DNA of 16,857 bases from Nitrospinota bacterium (GTDB lineage: Bacteria > 2-12-FULL-45-22 > JACOWJ01), in NCBI GenBank assembly GCA_016176845.1, contig JACOWJ010000014.1, positions 1-16,857 of the forward strand, read 5' to 3'. Every line of letters begins with the position of its first letter. Positions within the stretch are counted from its first letter, which is position 1. The position numbers and the translations under genes were made by a program. Under the pieces are notes generated by a model. It was not told the DNA's origin. It did no database searches and saw only the letters and a list, made by a program, of their open reading frames with translations. Shown here in pieces: positions 3,995 to 16,694 of this stretch.

Positions 3995-4040
3995 GAGCTC
4001 CATTCCCTTTTCATTCAATCGTATAGGAATTTCCATTTTC

Positions 4041-4065
4041 AGCTATGAGCTTTGAGCTATGAGCT
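4041..4065 (+). repeat. AGCTWTG heptamer repeat, copy 1
   Basis: Three and a half units of a 7-bp motif (AGCTATG, AGCTTTG, AGCTATG, AGCT) fill the rpiB-glyA spacer. The same motif occurs twice more as the arms of an inverted pair before proA (10902-10932 and 11046-11076). Because AGCT is self-complementary, the array can pair with its inverted copies. It lies upstream of glyA and not at a coding end. Confidence 0.75.
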
Positions 4066-6177: not shown

Positions 6178-7218
6178 ATGTTTGTCGATCAAGTGAAGAT
6201 TTACGTCAAGGGAGGGGACGGAGGAAGGGGCTGCCTTAGCTTTTGTCGGCAGAAATATCGACCTCGAGGAGGGCCGAACGGTGGGGATGGGGGGCGGGGA
6301 GGGGATGTGATTCTCCAGGCCTCGATCAATCTCCGCACGTTGCTGGACTTTCGCTACCGACCCCAGAATATCGCCCCCAGGGGCGGACACGGCAGCGGCA
6401 GCTGCCGCAAGGGAAGGGATGCGCCCCTTTGCATTTTGAAGGTTCCGGTGGGGACCCTCGTCAAGGATGTTCAAAGCCAGGAGGTGTTGGGCGATCTGAT
6501 GCGGGAAGGGGAGGAACTGGTGGTGGCCCGCGGAGGTCGCGGAGGTTGGGGCAATGCTCATTTCAAGTCCTCCACCAACCAGGCGCCCCGCCGGGTCGAA
6601 GGGGGGAGAGCCGGGGAGGAGCGGTGGCTGCAGCTAGAGCTAAAGTTGATGGCGGACGTTGGGTTGATCGGCCTGCCCAATGCGGGCAAGTCCACCTTCC
6701 TATCGCGCATCTCCGCCGCGCATCCCAAGGCCGCCCCATATCCCTTTACCACCCTGACCCCGAAGTTGGGGGTGGTCCAGTTGCCGGATTACCGAAGCTT
6801 TGTTGTGGCCGATATTCCGGGCCTGATCCCTGGCGCCCATCAGGGCAAGGGCCTGGGGGACCGGTTCCTGCGACACATCGAGAGGACGAGCCTGCTGGTC
6901 CACCTGGTTGACCTGGCGGTGGAAGATCCCATCGCCGCTTTTCATGCCGTGGAGAAGGAGCTGGAGTATTACAGCCCGGCCCTGGCCAGGAAGCCTCGAT
7001 TGGTGGTGGCCAATAAGATCGACCTCCCCCTGGCCTCGGAGAAGCTGCCCCAGGTCGAGAGAGACCTCCGCTCCCTGGGAATCCGAATCTATCCCCTATC
7101 GGCCAGGACCGGTCAGGGGGTGCCTGCATTGATCTGCGTGATGGATCAGAGGCTTCGGGAGATGGCGTGGGCTTCCCCGGAGCCGGTGGCCGAAGAGCTC
7201 GGCATCGCAGCCCCTTGA
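6178..7218 (+). CDS. obgE: Obg-family GTPase (50S assembly, stress response)
   Basis: The 346-residue protein has the Gly-rich Obg fold at residues 1-157 (KGGDGGRGCLSF, GGPNGGDGGRGGDV), then a G domain: GLPNAGKS (165-172), switch-region PFTTL, DIPGLI (212-217), NKID (279-282) and SAR (308-310). The C-terminal OCT domain found in some Firmicutes is absent. Obg binds late 50S intermediates and responds to ppGpp, which suits its place behind rplU-rpmA. The loop after the G3 motif reads PGLIPGAHQGKG where PGLIEGAH is usual, a small deviation of unknown effect. The ATG at 6178 is the natural start (MFVDQVKIYVKGGDGG). Confidence 0.96.
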   Translation: MFVDQVKIYVKGGDGGRGCLSFCRQKYRPRGGPNGGDGGRGGDVILQASINLRTLLDFRYRPQNIAPRGGHGSGSCRKGRDAPLCILKVPVGTLVKDVQSQEVLGDLMREGEELVVARGGRGGWGNAHFKSSTNQAPRRVEGGRAGEERWLQLELKLMADVGLIGLPNAGKSTFLSRISAAHPKAAPYPFTTLTPKLGVVQLPDYRSFVVADIPGLIPGAHQGKGLGDRFLRHIERTSLLVHLVDLAVEDPIAAFHAVEKELEYYSPALARKPRLVVANKIDLPLASEKLPQVERDLRSLGIRIYPLSARTGQGVPALICVMDQRLREMAWASPEPVAEELGIAAP

Positions 7219-7253: not shown

Positions 7254-8414
7254 ATGGATAATGATCAAGAGAAGAGGGCTCGCCCCGAGCTCATAGGGGG
7301 CTTCCGGCGGGTGGTGGTGAAGGTCGGCAGTGGGGTGTTGACTACAGCGGGCCAGGGGCTCAACCTGTCCATCATCGAGGGACTGGTGGAGCAGATGGCG
7401 GCGCTACAAGCCTCGCGGGTGGAGCTCCTCCTGGTCTCTTCGGGGGCGGTAGCCTCGGGCCTCCAGCGTCTGGATCTCAAGGAGGTCCCCAAGAGCATCC
7501 CCCAAAAACAGGCAGCCGCCGCGATCGGTCAAAGTCACCTGATCTGGATCTATGAGAAGCTCTTCGGGCAGCGCGGCCAAAAAGTGGCCCAGATCCTCCT
7601 GACCCATGAGGATCTGGCCAATCGCGCCCGCTATTTAAATGCGCGCAACACCTTGTTGACCTTGCTCCACTACCGGGTTATCCCCATTATCAACGAGAAC
7701 GACACGGTGGCCGTGGAGGAGATCAAGTTCGGCGACAATGATACCCTATCGGCCCTGGTGGCCACCATGATGGAGGCCGACCTGTTGATCATCCTGTCGG
7801 ATGTGGATGGCCTTTTCGATGGCGACCCGCGCGGAAATATCCAGGCCAGGCTGATCCCAACGGTGGCCGGCATTACTGCAGAGATCGAAGCGATGGCAGG
7901 GAAAAGCCGTTCCCGTACGGGCATTGGAGGGATGGTGACCAAGCTCCAGGCAGCCAAGAAGGCCGGTGCCCTGGGGATTATGACCGTGATCGCCAACGGG
8001 AAAACCCCCCTGGTTTTGTCCCGGATCTTGGAGGGGGAGCAGGTTGGGACGCTCTTTTTGCCCCAAAAGGATCGGTTGGCCAGCCGCAAACATTGGATCG
8101 CCTATACCTTGAAGCCGCACGGCCAACTCGTGGTAGATGATGGAGCCAGGAGGGCCCTGATGGCCAACGGCAAGAGCCTCCTCCCCAAGGGGGTGGTCGA
8201 GGTGAGAGGCCGGTTTGGCCCGGGGGATGCCGTAGTCTGCTACGATTTCCAAGGACGAGAGTTCGCCCGGGGGCTGACCAATTATGGTTCTCGGGAGCTG
8301 CAAGCAATCAAAGGGCATCACACGGCGGAGATCGAAGATATATTGGGGTACCGGTATTTCGATGAAGTGATCCATCGGGACGACCTGGTGCTGTACCCCT
8401 TTGGGGAATTGTAA
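7254..8414 (+). CDS. proB: Glutamate 5-kinase with PUA domain
   Basis: This enzyme phosphorylates glutamate to gamma-glutamyl phosphate, the first step of proline synthesis. I start it at the ATG at 7254 (386 residues). The frame is open upstream into obgE, but that part lacks family similarity. The Shine-Dalgarno is poor (only GGGG next to the ATG), so start confidence is moderate. The amino-acid-kinase domain shows VVVKVGSGVLT (21-30), SSGAVASGL (62-70), INENDTVAVEEIKFGDND (146-163), LSDVDGLFDGDPR and RTGIGGMVTKLQAA (221-234). The usual second Gly-rich sequence GTGGM is GIGGM here. A PUA domain fills residues ~290-370. It begins 35 nt after obgE. Its pathway partner proA is 2.7 kb downstream, beyond two inserted genes. 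Feedback inhibition by proline is a family property. Confidence 0.95.
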   Translation: MDNDQEKRARPELIGGFRRVVVKVGSGVLTTAGQGLNLSIIEGLVEQMAALQASRVELLLVSSGAVASGLQRLDLKEVPKSIPQKQAAAAIGQSHLIWIYEKLFGQRGQKVAQILLTHEDLANRARYLNARNTLLTLLHYRVIPIINENDTVAVEEIKFGDNDTLSALVATMMEADLLIILSDVDGLFDGDPRGNIQARLIPTVAGITAEIEAMAGKSRSRTGIGGMVTKLQAAKKAGALGIMTVIANGKTPLVLSRILEGEQVGTLFLPQKDRLASRKHWIAYTLKPHGQLVVDDGARRALMANGKSLLPKGVVEVRGRFGPGDAVVCYDFQGREFARGLTNYGSRELQAIKGHHTAEIEDILGYRYFDEVIHRDDLVLYPFGEL

Positions 8415-8479
8415 AATGCAAATTGCAAATTTAAAATTTCCCATCTTCAATTTACCATTTCCAATTCTCGCGAAGCGAG
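8415..8479. repeat. AT-rich spacer with AAATT-type repeats and a small hairpin
   Basis: The proB-to-dehydratase spacer is strikingly AT-rich against its surroundings. It contains the iterated GCAAATTGCAAATTTAAAAT and short AATTTACCATTTCCAATT blocks, followed by a CTCGC-GAA-GCGAG stem (8467-8479). A weak promoter reading is possible: TTGCAA (8423-8428), 17 bp, TTCAAT (8446-8451). If used, it would drive the inserted pair separately from proB. Confidence 0.4.
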
Positions 8480-8498
8480 CCGGGTTCTGGAGGACGAT

Positions 8499-9620
8499 AT
8501 GGAAAGTTTGATGGAGCGATTCAGGGAGAGCTTTGACCGCCGATACGAACGCGCCAGGGAAAGGAAGGCCGCCGGCCAGAGGATCATCGGCTGGGTCTGT
8601 GCCTGGGTGCCCGAGGAGATCTTTGCCGCAGCAGGCTTCCTGCCCTTCCGGGTGATGGGAGGAGGGGCGGAGACGCCCCGGGCCGACGCCCATCTCTACT
8701 CGAACAATTGCACCTTCGTGCGCAGCTGCCTGGAGGAGGCCTTCAAGGGCAACGTGGATTTCCTGGACGGGTTGGTGGCGTGCAACAGCTGCGACCATGT
8801 CCGGCGGCTATACGACTCCTGGCAGCAATACATTGCGACGCCCTTCAAGAAGGCCTTGGGGGTCCCCTGCAAATCATCTCCCATGACGATCAAGCTGTTC
8901 GCCCAGGATCTGGCATTGTTGCGTCAAGAACTGGGGGAGGCCTTCGGGGTGACGATCACCGATGAGGATCTGCGGCGGGCCATCGAGGTTTACAACCGCG
9001 GGAGGAGCTTGTTGCGGCAGCTCTATGAGCTGAGGAAGGCGGACTCTCCTCCGATAACGGGCGCCGAGGCCCTGGAAGTAGTTAAAGCGGGCTGGTACAT
9101 GCCGCGGGAGGAGTACAACGGGCTCTTGGTCGAGCTGCTGGCCAGGCTCAAGGGAAGAAAGGTGGAAGCCGGAGAGCATCGGCTTATGGTGCTGGGGAGC
9201 CAGATGGACGACCCCGGCTATCTCCGGGTCATCGAGGAGCTGGGGGGGATCGTGGTGATCGATGACCTCTGCTGTGGCTCCCGCTCCTTCTGGAATCTCG
9301 CTGGGATCGACGGGGACCCCATTCAGGCCCTGGCGGAGCGCTATGTGAACCGGCCCTTCTGTCCCAGGATGCACCCGAGGGAGCCTCGGGTCAAGCACCT
9401 TCAACAGCTGGCTCGGGAGTACCGGGTGGATGGGGTGATCTTCGAGAGCATCAAATTCTGTGATTTGAACGCCGGGACATTCCCGGTGATCAAGGCCTGT
9501 TTCGATGAACTGGACCTGCCCGTGTTGAACCTGGAGCGGGAGTACACGATGACCAGTGCCGGACAGATGAAAACCCGTGTGGGGGCTTTTTATGAGAGCC
9601 TCGAGGGGAGGAGGGCGTAG
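8499..9620 (+). CDS. 2-hydroxyacyl-CoA dehydratase/benzoyl-CoA reductase family, smaller subunit (BcrC/HgdB-like)
   Basis: This 373-residue protein belongs to the HgdB/BcrC-type family of [4Fe-4S] proteins that, once activated by an ATP-driven one-electron donor, remove water from 2-hydroxyacyl-CoAs or reduce aromatic-ring CoA esters. Family signatures are GWVCAWVPEEIFAAAGFLPFRV (31-52), NCTFVRSCLE (70-79), DGLVACNSCDHVRRLYDSW (90-108) and, near the end, DGVIFESIKFCDLNAG (311-326). Cluster ligands are probably among C34, C71/C77, C95/C98 and C321. Length fits BcrC or HgdB. The ATG follows GGAGG by 6 nt, and the partner subunit begins 2 nt after the stop. No activating ATPase (HgdC/BcrAD type), CoA transferase or acyl-CoA dehydrogenase is in the window, so the substrate cannot be assigned. 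It lies between proB and proA. Confidence 0.85.
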   Translation: MESLMERFRESFDRRYERARERKAAGQRIIGWVCAWVPEEIFAAAGFLPFRVMGGGAETPRADAHLYSNNCTFVRSCLEEAFKGNVDFLDGLVACNSCDHVRRLYDSWQQYIATPFKKALGVPCKSSPMTIKLFAQDLALLRQELGEAFGVTITDEDLRRAIEVYNRGRSLLRQLYELRKADSPPITGAEALEVVKAGWYMPREEYNGLLVELLARLKGRKVEAGEHRLMVLGSQMDDPGYLRVIEELGGIVVIDDLCCGSRSFWNLAGIDGDPIQALAERYVNRPFCPRMHPREPRVKHLQQLAREYRVDGVIFESIKFCDLNAGTFPVIKACFDELDLPVLNLEREYTMTSAGQMKTRVGAFYESLEGRRA

Positions 9621-9622
9621 CT

Positions 9623-10900
9623 ATGGAGAGAGAGAGATCGGACGATCTGAGCCTGGAGAACATGGTAAAGCGGTTTCGCAACCGATTGGCCCGCCAGAGA
9701 GAAGAGGGGAAGGAGCTGAGCAAGCAGCTATTCACCGAGGCTATGGCCAACTATTTTGAGCGGGCGGGCAACGCCCGGGAGCAAGGGAAGCCCCTGGTCT
9801 TCACCAGCGTGCTGGCCTTCCCGGAGGTATTTACCGCCATGGGAGCGGTGCCCTTCGCCCCGGCGCAGTATTGCATCCAGCTGATGGTTCAGGGCTTCAG
9901 CTCCAAATATATCGATCGGGGGGTGGCCTTTGGGGTCTCCAAAGAAGTCTGCTCCGCCAACACTGCCTCCGTGGGGATGGCCGCCGATGGGATCTTTCCC
10001 CAGCCGGACCTGCAGTTTGCCACGGCTCAGCAGCCCTGCGACCCGGCGGTGGTGGAATCCGAGCTGCTCAACCTGATCTATAAGGTCCCCATTTACTGGT
10101 TTAACATCCCTTACCGCCTGGGCGAGGGGACGGTGGATTACTTCAAGGAGGAATTCAAGGGGGTGATCGGCTTCCTGGAGGAGCACGTGGGGTTGCGCTA
10201 CGATGAGGCCAAACTGAAAGAATGCCTCAGAATCGCCAAAGAGGCCCACCACTGGTACAAGAAGCTGCAGGAGCTGCGGCTGGAGGCGATCCCGGCCCCC
10301 ATCGGCTGCCGGGAGGCCTATTCCTCCTATAGCTCTCTGGTATTTATGGAGGGGCGGCCCGAGACGATTGCGATCAACAAGGCCCAGTACGAAGAGATCC
10401 GGGCCAAGGTCGATCGCAAAGAGGGCGTGGTCCCCCAGGAGCGCCACCGGGTGGTGGTCAATGGGGCTTACCCCTTCTGGAACATGCGGCTGTTTGACTG
10501 GATGGAGCAAGAGTTCGGGGCGGTGGTGGCGTTAGATTTCAATAACTCCATCTACATGGACTCCCTGGACGATGAGTTGGAGGACCCGATCGAGTACCTG
10601 GCCCGCAAGTCCACGGGGACCAACCTGGCGGTGAAGGTGGCCTGCGCCCCTTACCCAGAGTTTGCTGAGGAGATCGGCCGCAGCGCTAAACGGGCGCAGT
10701 GTGACTCTTCAATCTATTTCACCCACTTTGGCTGCAAGATGTCCTGCGGTTCCAACAAGGTCTTCTCGGATGCCTTGATGGATATCGCCGGCATTCCCAC
10801 AGCCATCGTGGATATCGATGCCTACGACAAACGAATTGTCTCCGAGGCTCAGATCAAGGCCTCCATCAGCAACTATTTTAAGATGTTGGAAAACCGATAA
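9623..10900 (+). CDS. 2-hydroxyacyl-CoA dehydratase/benzoyl-CoA reductase family, larger subunit (BcrB/HgdA-like)
   Basis: The 425-residue protein is the probable partner of the preceding gene. Only 2 nt separate the two, and GGAGGAGGG at the end of the first gene serves as its Shine-Dalgarno. Recognisable parts are an N-terminal helical region (1-55), VFTSVLAFPEVFTAMGAVPF (59-78, a variant of the family's opening strand), SKEVCSANTASVG (106-118), TAQQPCDP (134-141) and HFGCKMSCGSNKVFSDAL near residues 368-385. Candidate cluster ligands are C110, C139 and one of C371/C375. This size and pairing resemble BcrB or HgdA. In the family the two subunits form a heterodimer, each with a [4Fe-4S] cluster. 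A heptamer-repeat inverted pair separates it from proA. The substrate is unknown. Confidence 0.82.
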   Translation: MERERSDDLSLENMVKRFRNRLARQREEGKELSKQLFTEAMANYFERAGNAREQGKPLVFTSVLAFPEVFTAMGAVPFAPAQYCIQLMVQGFSSKYIDRGVAFGVSKEVCSANTASVGMAADGIFPQPDLQFATAQQPCDPAVVESELLNLIYKVPIYWFNIPYRLGEGTVDYFKEEFKGVIGFLEEHVGLRYDEAKLKECLRIAKEAHHWYKKLQELRLEAIPAPIGCREAYSSYSSLVFMEGRPETIAINKAQYEEIRAKVDRKEGVVPQERHRVVVNGAYPFWNMRLFDWMEQEFGAVVALDFNNSIYMDSLDDELEDPIEYLARKSTGTNLAVKVACAPYPEFAEEIGRSAKRAQCDSSIYFTHFGCKMSCGSNKVFSDALMDIAGIPTAIVDIDAYDKRIVSEAQIKASISNYFKMLENR

Positions 10901-10901
10901 T

Positions 10902-11076
10902 AGCTCAAAGCTCATAGCTCAAAGCTCATAGCAGCTTTAAGCCATAGTCTTCGAGGGGATGTTTGGGCATCTGAGCTCGCCGAGCTAAGAAGTTTGCGGA
11001 CATGGCGATACCAGAGGTCCAATTCTCTTTCCGAAGTCTATATCCGCTATGAGCTATGAGCTTTGAGCTATGAGCT
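10902..11076. repeat. Inverted pair of AGCTWTG heptamer arrays flanking ~113 bp
   Basis: The left arm (10902-10932) is four and a half heptamers AGCTCAA/AGCTCAT. The right arm (11046-11076) is the same motif in reverse orientation. Aligned end to end they differ at 3 of 31 positions, and a 7-bp shift makes them match still better. The enclosed 10933-11045 has no gene but includes the palindromic GAGCTCGCCGAGCT. In RNA the arms would close a large stem-loop between the dehydratase pair and proA. Copy 1 upstream of glyA shows the motif is dispersed. Confidence 0.75.
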
Positions 11077-11094
11077 TATCTTGGGAGGGGTTGG

Positions 11095-12351
11095 GTGTCT
11101 CTGAAGCAAAGGATGGACCAGTTGGCCCAGCGGGCCAGGGGAGCAGCCAAGGGGCTGGCCGGCTTATCCTCGAAGGTCAAGGACGAGGCCTTGCAGGAGA
11201 TGGCCCTTAGCCTTGAGCGGGGAGGTGAGCTCTTGCTGGAGGCCAATCGACTCGACCTGGAGGCCGCCCGCCAGAAAGGCCTTTCTTCCGCTATGCTGGA
11301 CCGGCTGACCCTGAACCCCAAGCGGCTCTCCGACATGGCCCGGGGCCTGAGGGAGGTGGCCGCCTTGCCCGATCCGGTGGGGGAAGTGGTCAAGATGTGG
11401 AAGCGGCCCAATGGGCTTCTCATCGGCAAGATGCGGGTCCCCTTAGGGGTCATCGGGATCATCTACGAGTCTCGCCCCAATGTCACTGCGGATGCTGCGG
11501 GGCTTTGCCTGAAAGCGGGAAACGCCGTGATCTTACGGGGAGGGTCGGAGGCCTTCCTCTCCAATCGGGCCATTGTAACCCTTCTACGAGAGGCCCTGGA
11601 CCGGATAGGGGTCTCCCCGGAGACCTTGCAATTTGTGGACACCACAGACCGAGAGGCGGTATTGGAGCTGCTGAAGTTGGACCGGTATATCGACCTGATC
11701 GTCCCCCGGGGAGGGCCGGAACTGATCCGGATGGTGGCAGAGAGCTCCACCATCCCAGTGGTCAAGCACGACAAGGGACTCTGCCACATCTATGTGGACC
11801 GGGAGGCCGATCTGGCCATGGCCGAAGAGATCGTCTATAACGCCAAGGTGCAACGTCCCGGGGTTTGCAACGCCATGGAGACCTTGCTGGTGCACCGGGA
11901 AGTGGCCGAGGCCTTCCTCCCCCGGATGGCTGGGCGTCTGCTGAAGGCCGGCGTGGAACTGCGGGGATGTCCGGTGACCTGCCGGCTCATCCCCCAGGCC
12001 CAAGAGGCGACGGAAGAGGACTGGGATACGGAGTATCTCGACCTGATCCTATCGGTCAAGGTGGTGGAGGAGATCCAGGAGGCCCTCGATCATATCTCCC
12101 GGTACAGTTCCATGCTCTCCGAGGCGATCGTGACCCAAAACTACGGCCGGGCCATGCGGTTTATTCGGGAGGTGGACTCGGCGGCGGTCTATGTGAACAG
12201 TTCCACCCGCTTCACCGATGGGGGCGAGTTTGGTTTGGGGGCCGAACTGGGGATCAGCACCCAAAAGCTACACGTGCGGGGGCCCATGGGACTGGAAGAC
12301 TTGACCTCTATGAAGTATATTATTTTTGGAGAAGGGCAGATTAGGGAATGA
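11095..12351 (+). CDS. proA: Gamma-glutamyl phosphate reductase
   Basis: The 418-residue NADPH-dependent enzyme reduces gamma-glutamyl phosphate to glutamate 5-semialdehyde, the second step of proline synthesis. It has the ALDH-superfamily layout: IIYESRPNVTADAAGLCLKAGNAVILRGG (122-150), the catalytic cysteine C258 in QRPGVCNAMET, and the C-terminal STRFTDGGEFGLGAELGIST segment. Length is normal. The start is a GTG at 11095 following GGGAGGGG. The preceding bases are the heptamer repeat, so no upstream start is plausible. nadD follows 4 nt after its stop, so the two are probably translated from one message. Confidence 0.97.
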   Translation: MSLKQRMDQLAQRARGAAKGLAGLSSKVKDEALQEMALSLERGGELLLEANRLDLEAARQKGLSSAMLDRLTLNPKRLSDMARGLREVAALPDPVGEVVKMWKRPNGLLIGKMRVPLGVIGIIYESRPNVTADAAGLCLKAGNAVILRGGSEAFLSNRAIVTLLREALDRIGVSPETLQFVDTTDREAVLELLKLDRYIDLIVPRGGPELIRMVAESSTIPVVKHDKGLCHIYVDREADLAMAEEIVYNAKVQRPGVCNAMETLLVHREVAEAFLPRMAGRLLKAGVELRGCPVTCRLIPQAQEATEEDWDTEYLDLILSVKVVEEIQEALDHISRYSSMLSEAIVTQNYGRAMRFIREVDSAAVYVNSSTRFTDGGEFGLGAELGISTQKLHVRGPMGLEDLTSMKYIIFGEGQIRE

Positions 12352-12355
12352 GGTA

Positions 12356-13051
12356 ATGAGGATCGGGATTCTGGGAGGCACCTTCAACCCTGTTCATTAT
12401 GGCCATTTGATCTCTGCCAATGAGGCAGTGGAGAGGTTTCGGCTGGAGAAGGTGATCTTTATTCCGGCCGCCCGCCCTCCTCACAAAGTGCAGCAGCGGC
12501 TGATCGATGCCCACCATCGGTTGATGATGACCCTCCTGGCGACCCTTTCTCATCCCCGCATGGAGGTCTCGGCCATCGAGCTCGAAAGGGAGGGAAAATC
12601 CTATTCGATCCACACCATAGAAGAGCTCAAGCGATCTCATCCCCCGGAGACGGAGTTCTTTTTCATTGGAGGGTGCGATGCATTCATGGAGGTGGCCACC
12701 TGGAGAGAGGTGGATAGGCTATTTCGGGCCTGTCACTTCATCGTCAATGCCAGGCCCGGTTATCCCCTGAAAGATTTGAGGGGGATGTTGGAGGAGACGG
12801 TCACTCCTCTTTATCGTGACCTCTCTTTCAGAGATGGAGGGAGGGATGAGCTGACCAACTGCATCCAGATTGTGGCTTCCGGTTCTCCCTATGTCATCTA
12901 CCTCGCGGAGGCCATCTTGATCGAAATATCGGCCAGCGATATCCGCCGCAGATTGGCTCAGGGGAGAACGATTCGGTATCTGGTCCCTGACATCGTGGAG
13001 CAATACGTAAGGAAACATGGGCTTTATGGGGCTGGGCAGGACTCCCTTTGA
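12356..13051 (+). CDS. nadD: Nicotinate-nucleotide adenylyltransferase
   Basis: The enzyme transfers AMP from ATP to nicotinate mononucleotide, giving deamido-NAD. I start it at the ATG at 12356 (231 residues, MRIGILGGTFNPVHYGH), 4 nt after the proA stop and with GAGG just upstream. An upstream in-frame extension would overlap proA without adding family sequence. The nucleotidyltransferase motifs are GGTFNPVHYGH (7-17) and ISASDIRRRL (191-200). The second usually reads ISSTxIR, so Ala-Ser replaces Ser-Thr. The mid-domain FIGGCDAF replaces the common IxGxD form. Length is at the upper end of the usual range. It sits in the common nadD-rsfS order. Confidence 0.95.
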   Translation: MRIGILGGTFNPVHYGHLISANEAVERFRLEKVIFIPAARPPHKVQQRLIDAHHRLMMTLLATLSHPRMEVSAIELEREGKSYSIHTIEELKRSHPPETEFFFIGGCDAFMEVATWREVDRLFRACHFIVNARPGYPLKDLRGMLEETVTPLYRDLSFRDGGRDELTNCIQIVASGSPYVIYLAEAILIEISASDIRRRLAQGRTIRYLVPDIVEQYVRKHGLYGAGQDSL

Positions 13052-15592: not shown

Positions 15593-16645
15593 CTACTGGC
15601 TGGTTTCTTTGGGAGACTGGTGTGCTGAAAGAAGGGTTGTCGAGTCCTTCCTCCCTCTCAACAGCTCGACAAATGCCTCCAACCGAGTTTTAGTCCGCAT
15701 ATCCAGACAGATAGGCTTATCTCCCTCAACGGTCAAGATAGGCACGCCCAAACATTGGCGGAAGATGATATCCTCCAGCTGGCGGAAACAAAAGGCCTGG
15801 ACATAATGGATCAGCCCTTGAATCTCCCTCTTGGCAATCTCCTCCTGAATATCGCGGACCCTGCCCCAGATCCCGTAAGGATAAGTATAGCAGCGGTATC
15901 GCTCAACCAGATCCGCTGAGGAGATCGAGGGCAAACTGAACTGCCGCTGAACCTCATGGTAAACGATTCGGGCTCCGAAGGCTTCCAGGTAATCATGAAG
16001 GCCCTCCCAAATGGGCGGCACTCCGATGTAGCCCAACCGGACTTCCTCCTGGAAGGGGATGGCAGACTCCAGCTGGGCCAAATAGCCATCGACCTCCTTT
16101 TCGAAGCCCACGGGGTCCCCTCCTCTCATGTCCGTGCTTTGGACCAAGAAGAGATGGTTATGATAGCCATCGACGAGATTGGCTCGCCAGGTCAGCTCAT
16201 CGATCCGGTGGAGCTTTCGCCGCAAGGGGTCTAGCTCATCTTTGACGACGTTGACCTCTTCCCAACCGATGTTCCACCGGGCCATCAACCGCTCCATCTG
16301 CTGGCGCAGGATGCGGCTATCCCGATCGGCAGGATAGGAAAAGGGCAGGATCTCCATCCCGGCCAGCTCCAAGAGCTCCATCAGGACCCGGCTGTTGCTG
16401 CAATCCCCCCAGTCGACCGCGATGATGGTCCTTATTCCCTCCCTTTGGGCTACCGCATAAATCCCCTTGATCCAAGAGCAGGTCTGGGTAGGAAACCCCA
16501 ATCGCTCCGCTTCTTCCAGGACCTCCAAGGGACGATTCTGGCCGATAAAGAGGTTGTTCAGGTCCACTGGGCGCTTGCCCGCAGCCAGAATGATCTCAAC
16601 CGGAACAGTTGTCGTGAAGCCAACTGCAGACATGATTGAGGACAT
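15593..16645 (-). CDS. Solitary 2-hydroxyacyl-CoA dehydratase-family (HgdB-like) protein
   Basis: I give the start as the ATG at 16645 (350 residues). The frame extends to a TTG at 16672 and another ATG lies at 16633; none has a strong Shine-Dalgarno. The fold signature is clear: GFTTTVPVEIILAAGKRPVDL (9-29) matches the opening YxxSxVPEEIIxAAGxxPVR motif. TCSWIKG (55-61), VDWGDCSNSR (78-86) and LIHYVQAFCFRQLED (278-292) carry the three conserved cysteines C56, C82 and C286. GVPILTVEGDK and TRLEAFVELL end the domain. It resembles single-gene homologues such as the MJ0007 type more than the paired subunits at 8499 and 9623. Its reaction is unknown. The third cysteine is embedded in a divergent FCFRQ context, and the family's first-motif Cys is replaced by Thr. 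No partner is adjacent. Confidence 0.78.
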   Translation of the reverse strand: MSSIMSAVGFTTTVPVEIILAAGKRPVDLNNLFIGQNRPLEVLEEAERLGFPTQTCSWIKGIYAVAQREGIRTIIAVDWGDCSNSRVLMELLELAGMEILPFSYPADRDSRILRQQMERLMARWNIGWEEVNVVKDELDPLRRKLHRIDELTWRANLVDGYHNHLFLVQSTDMRGGDPVGFEKEVDGYLAQLESAIPFQEEVRLGYIGVPPIWEGLHDYLEAFGARIVYHEVQRQFSLPSISSADLVERYRCYTYPYGIWGRVRDIQEEIAKREIQGLIHYVQAFCFRQLEDIIFRQCLGVPILTVEGDKPICLDMRTKTRLEAFVELLRGRKDSTTLLSAHQSPKETSQ

Positions 16646-16694
16646 TTGCCCAGCAGTGTAACAGAAACCCAAGGGCCAGTCAAGGGGTTTCTAC

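Follow-up and report, generated by a model that had tools for sequence, protein, structure and literature searches.

A predicted double-cubane HGD-D enzyme pair between proB and proA in a Nitrospinota genome, one copy of a large paralogous family

For the BZD-type class I benzoyl-CoA reductase BzdNO (PDB 8s02), a heterodimer of two HGD-D subunits, the structure paper reports a defined role in catabolism, the first for a double-cubane enzyme, and assigns acid-base catalysis to Glu65 and His131 of the BzdO subunit (PMC11971306). Two other described systems are relevant here: the 2-hydroxyisocaproyl-CoA dehydratase HadBC (PDB 3o3m) and the DCCP proteins (PDB 6eno, 7yyl), homodimers that carry a double cubane in each subunit. 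In the locus described below, from an uncultured bacterium, the genes for the two HGD-D subunits, beta and alpha, of a predicted oxygen-sensitive iron-sulfur enzyme are placed between proB and proA, proline-synthesis genes that are normally adjacent. Our best explanation as a whole, to which we assign a probability of roughly 0.7, is that the pair is an inserted duplicate encoding an ATP-activated double-cubane reductase that draws on an activase encoded in trans and has no relation to proline.

The window, i.e. the whole stretch of 16,857 nucleotides that was analysed, is the complete contig C19 of a metagenome-assembled genome (MAG) of 1,531,706 bases in 61 contigs, 68% complete. It was compared with Nitrospinae RIFCSPLOWO2_12_FULL_45_22, a member of the same order and the sole other genome of the phylum available for comparison, hereafter the sister genome, which has been placed in the GTDB class 2-12-FULL-45-22 of Nitrospinota_B (PMC10839748). 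The features of the locus are as follows.

6178 to 7218, + strand: obgE, the conserved upstream neighbour after rplU and rpmA; same order and 60% identity in the sister locus L049
7254 to 8414, + strand: proB, glutamate 5-kinase (AA_kinase and PUA domains); TIGR01027, 457.6 bits (cut-off 186)
8415 to 8498: AT-rich spacer; carries a degenerate array, with a 7-bp unit, of the dispersed TTGAAAA-type repeats
8499 to 9620, + strand: beta subunit, HGD-D (PF06050), BzdN-like; 312 bits against a cut-off of 28.4
9623 to 10900, + strand: alpha subunit, HGD-D (PF06050), catalytic-type; 175 bits against the same cut-off
10901 to 11094: spacer with an inverted AGCTCAT/AGCTCAA 7-mer array, an imperfect palindrome of about 180 nt
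11095 to 12351, + strand: proA, glutamate-5-semialdehyde dehydrogenase, GTG start; TIGR00407, 513.4 bits against 317, and NF001221, 620 against 289
12356 to 13051, + strand: nadD-like cytidylyltransferase (PF01467), the conserved downstream neighbour; same order in sister locus L049

In both subunits the PF06050 domain is full-length and above the curated cut-off, which places them in the BCR/HAD superfamily. Only two bases separate the end of beta from the start of alpha, which lies behind a purine-rich stretch, and the two genes are thus tightly coupled. Profile matches and coordinates therefore bear out the first-pass annotation, made from the letters alone, in its claim that two tightly coupled PF06050 genes split proB from proA on the same strand. 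The contig also holds a third, stand-alone and very divergent HGD-D gene at 15593 to 16672 on the minus strand (88.6 bits); it lacks the equivalents of Cys34 and Cys258 of beta and hence is not of the full double-cubane type. At 17 to 991 on the plus strand lies a tyrosine-recombinase-like gene with an N-terminal SAM domain only, whose reading frame stops short of a complete catalytic domain and which is probably a broken copy.

The beta subunit resembles BzdN in fold and in its ligand set. In the alignment, Cys34, Cys71, Cys98, Cys258, Cys288 and Cys321 fall on all six [8Fe-9S] ligand positions common to BzdN and DCCP, whereas HadC retains four of the six and lacks the equivalents of Cys34 and Cys258, both of which beta has. 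The structural model of beta (pLDDT 90.5) matches BzdN best (8s02_B, TM 0.95, rmsd 1.7 A, 35% identity), with HadC (TM 0.92) and DCCP ranking behind. BzdN is likewise the best match among the NCBIfam profiles, at 233 bits against a cut-off of 453.8 that is not reached, and the HadC equivalog is missed by far (161 bits, cut-off 700). Judged by its ligand set, beta is predicted to be a double-cubane [8Fe-9S]-type subunit, in which the cluster would presumably be occupied.

Alpha is more remote. It has the three [4Fe-4S] ligand cysteines that it shares with BzdO (Cys110, Cys139 and Cys371), an additional Cys375 common to many of its kin, and no cysteine at the Cys34 equivalent. At the column of BzdO His131, in a part of the alignment that covers BzdO, alpha has Ala142. 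Where HadB and most alpha subunits have glutamate it has Ala81, a position equated with BzdO Glu65 through HadB, since that part of BzdO is absent from the alignments. The model (pLDDT 80) is nearest to HadB (3o3m_A/C, TM 0.86-0.87), and the catalytic subunits HadB and BzdO rank ahead of BzdN-type subunits. The best NCBIfam score is 81 bits, for HadB (cut-off 750), and BzdO scores 41 (cut-off 448.6); alpha is far from every characterised family.

These comparisons place the pair in the BCR/HAD family and give it a beta subunit of the double-cubane type, but do not establish it as BzdNO, HadBC or DCCP. It differs from DCCP in that the two subunits are unlike each other and alpha offers a three-cysteine site only, without the Cys34 equivalent. 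The full double-cubane set in beta and the missed HadB and HadC cut-offs argue against a dehydratase of the HadBC type, which agrees with the pair in fold and subunit make-up; neither an activase nor a CoA-transferase is present at this locus. Among the dehydratases HadBC, FldBC and HgdAB, this comparison covered HadBC. The likeness to BzdNO goes further, as both are heterodimers of HGD-D subunits, but the equivalog cut-offs are missed here, adjacent bzdPQ genes are lacking and the pair sits inside proBA. If the pair were a true benzoyl-CoA or other aryl-CoA reductase, dearomatising a ring with help from a BcrAD/BzdPQ-type activase in trans, this would account for the first rank of BzdN in both profile and structural matches, and BzdQ-related activases do occur in the genome. 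We nonetheless regard this as unlikely: beta scores far under the BzdN cut-off, alpha carries alanine at both positions of the BzdO residues assigned acid-base roles (PMC11971306), and BcrB/BcrC- and BzdO-like copies elsewhere in the genome are better candidates. Benzoyl-CoA itself is an unlikely substrate because the catalytic glutamate and histidine are not conserved in alpha. The preferred assignment is that of a double-cubane-type heterodimer that probably acts on a different CoA ester.

The pair is one copy within a large paralogous expansion, as judged from the 29 HGD-D matches that a profile search finds in this genome against four clear activases. Some 15 of the genes are of the alpha type and about 12 of the beta type, and one more is divergent. 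At least a dozen paralogues occupy unrelated genomic places; the set in the sister genome is comparable, with at least 18 alpha-type matches. In both trees the sister of the window pair is another pair of the same genome, on contig C14 (support 99/98 for beta and 99 for alpha), with which it shares 59-60% identity in beta and 47-48% in alpha. An MFS transporter lies upstream of the C14 pair and a fused double family-III CoA-transferase downstream of it; in the sister genome a family-III CoA-transferase lies next downstream of the alpha gene on contig C88. Operons of the had and fld type also include family-III CoA-transferases, and the nearest paralogues resemble them in this respect. The nearest kin appear catabolic and CoA-linked, a context that is absent around the copy in proBA. 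This phylum-level lineage, in which the HGD-D family has been little explored, encodes over a dozen heterodimers of the double-cubane type and few activases; given that BzdNO was described as the first catabolic double-cubane enzyme (PMC11971306), the Nitrospinota_B genomes constitute a reservoir of new low-potential reductases.

The four clear activases, found with the PF01869 profile, are encoded on contigs C21, C34 (two) and C53. There is no PF01869 match on contig C19, and so no adjacent BzdPQ-type genes; the earlier statement that no activator lies nearby is correct for the contig but does not extend to the genome. As the activases are fewer than the HGD-D pairs, sharing of activases in trans is likely. 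The orphan activase on C21 adjoins an MFS transporter that shares 51% identity with its counterpart in the C14 cluster. By analogy, the pair probably operates like a BZD-type class I benzoyl-CoA reductase, with cluster roles taken from the BzdNO structure (PMC11971306). Low-potential electrons from ferredoxin would pass to an ATP-driven activase encoded elsewhere, from there to the [8Fe-9S] double cubane in beta and on to the [4Fe-4S] cluster of alpha, where a CoA thioester would be reduced or reductively dehydrated. Beyond the presence of activases in trans, this route is modelled on BzdNO throughout, and a CoA-ester substrate is suggested by the family-III CoA-transferases that neighbour its closest relatives. 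A separate observation concerns the surroundings of the family: LolA_like/DUF1329 outer-membrane-type proteins recur next to HGD-D pairs and the orphan activase (loci L035, L036, L039 and L047), as do MFS transporters and CoA-transferases.

How the pair came to lie between proB and proA is best judged from other genomes. In the sister genome the order rplU-rpmA-obgE-proB-proA-nadD is uninterrupted, with a proB-proA spacing of 106 bp, and its proB and proA are 72% and 73% identical to those of the window. In a broad bacterial sample, 54 genomes had both genes above cut-off and 29 of these had them clustered; measured from HMM match to HMM match, the gap ranged over 35-711 bp in 28 of them and reached 2743 bp in this genome only, so that none of the other 28 clustered genomes has a comparable gap. 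A strict pattern scan of GTDB r220 matched the loci of the sister genome only, and the distribution is a sampled rather than an exhaustive one. The full operon order is preserved around the pair here, whereas the 2.7 kb placed between proB and proA is missing from the other operons sampled. From the uninterrupted sister cluster and a gap outside the range of the 28 other loci we conclude that the arrangement arose in one lineage, with an insertion as its simplest explanation. With a single relative for comparison, the direction, an insertion here rather than an excision in the sister genome, is inferred from the wide occurrence of adjacent proBA genes. The simple insertion with retained strand proposed by the first-pass annotation gains support from the uninterrupted sister cluster and from the nearest kin being a paralogue in the same genome. 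On this reading a two-subunit HGD-D enzyme of catabolic type would have been duplicated, and one copy would have entered the proB-proA spacer in the orientation of proB and proA. There is no sign of a recent foreign origin: GC and GC3 of the pair are in line with those of the neighbouring genes (GC3 0.80, against 0.78 for proA, 0.75 for proB and 0.80 for glyA). By itself, the insertion into proBA is a one-lineage curiosity.

The spacers on either side of the pair contain repeats, and their bearing on the insertion can be assessed genome-wide. The spacer ahead of beta is AT-rich, as had been noted at the outset, with 40% GC against about 58% genome-wide, and the inverted heptamer arrays after the pair are likewise real, at 10902-10939 and 11039-11077. 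The proposal that they record the insertion is not supported. Genome-wide, the TTGAAAA-type family gives 230 matches where a reversed control gives 20, and the AGCTCAT/AGCTCAA family, dispersed and intergenic, has 56 exact 12-mer matches against none for the control. Taken together the two families occur about once per 9 kb, with 1.07 per 10 kb on HGD-D contigs and 1.08 on control stretches, and the arrays were therefore rejected as insertion scars. Both inverted 7-bp array families hardly occur at those loci of the sister genome that were examined; a further inverted 7-bp array site lies at 4040-4065 of the window, and the proB-proA spacer of the sister genome (L049:3451-3556) holds a repeat-like inverted sequence of a different kind (CCTGAGCGTAGCGAAGGGTCTT...CTTCGCTTCGCTCAGAATGAC).

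Dispersed repeats on both sides also raise the question of a misassembly that joined the pair between proB and proA. Members of genome-wide families do stand in both spacers, on a single contig of a fragmentary MAG, but such an artefact is improbable: it would require two independent false joins although on either side of the pair the ancestral order and orientation, obgE-proB and proA-nadD, are kept, the GC and GC3 of the pair match those of its neighbours, and no N runs are seen in the sequence read. A promoter scan returned one weak promoter-like match before beta (TTGTAA-17-TAAAAT at 8409-8437), and a scan for terminator-like sites between the genes found no more than expected by chance; proB, the pair and proA are presumably co-transcribed. 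The array region 10902-11077 is predicted to fold strongly (z = -5.1) and could weaken read-through into proA.

The second idea of the first-pass annotation was that glutamate-derived carbon is partitioned between proline and an anaerobic CoA-ester route, with the pair acting for example as a 2-hydroxyglutaryl-CoA dehydratase. Such coupling would sit well with the shared strand, the tight gene order and the lack of terminator-like sites above chance, yet we consider it very improbable. The pair is absent from the cluster of the sister genome and from the other sampled clustered proBA loci, the double-cubane cysteines of beta set it apart from the dehydratase subunit HadC, and a dozen or more paralogues occur at places with no relation to proBA. 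The glutaconyl-CoA decarboxylase of the hydroxyglutarate route (PF03977) has no match in either genome, both of which are incomplete, and a glutamate fermentation route was rejected on this ground. Neither conservation, beta type nor the decarboxylase search thus supports a link to proline, and while the insertion half of the earlier interpretation holds up, its metabolic half does not. The pair looks like a stray copy of a large same-genome family.

The nearest paralogue adds an observation of its own. The C14 beta gene contains a single in-frame TGA (L035:6941-6943), aligned to Cys98 of the window beta (NTUDHIRRLYDAW against NSCDHVRRLYDSW), and the genome encodes selA, selB and a tRNA-Sec. 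No other homologue checked has a stop at this position. The hairpin that directly follows the TGA is the second most stable among 50 homologous sites, and Rfam yields no SECIS family there. About half of the codons in the C14 beta gene that are one base away from TGA are cysteine codons, so that a random nonsense change or an error at a cysteine is not improbable. On this single example, the C14 beta is a candidate selenocysteine-containing double-cubane subunit. We tentatively suggest, at somewhat less than even odds, that the window pair belongs to an undescribed, lineage-expanded Nitrospinota_B subfamily of ATP-driven double-cubane reductases in which Cys98 can be replaced by selenocysteine. 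No described HGD-D selenoprotein was found in the literature searched, the coverage of which is incomplete, and a selenocysteine-ligated [8Fe-9S] cluster, if true, would be new as far as that literature shows. If the UGA in the C14 gene does encode selenocysteine, this subunit would provide a means to study how a change of ligand tunes the [8Fe-9S] cluster.
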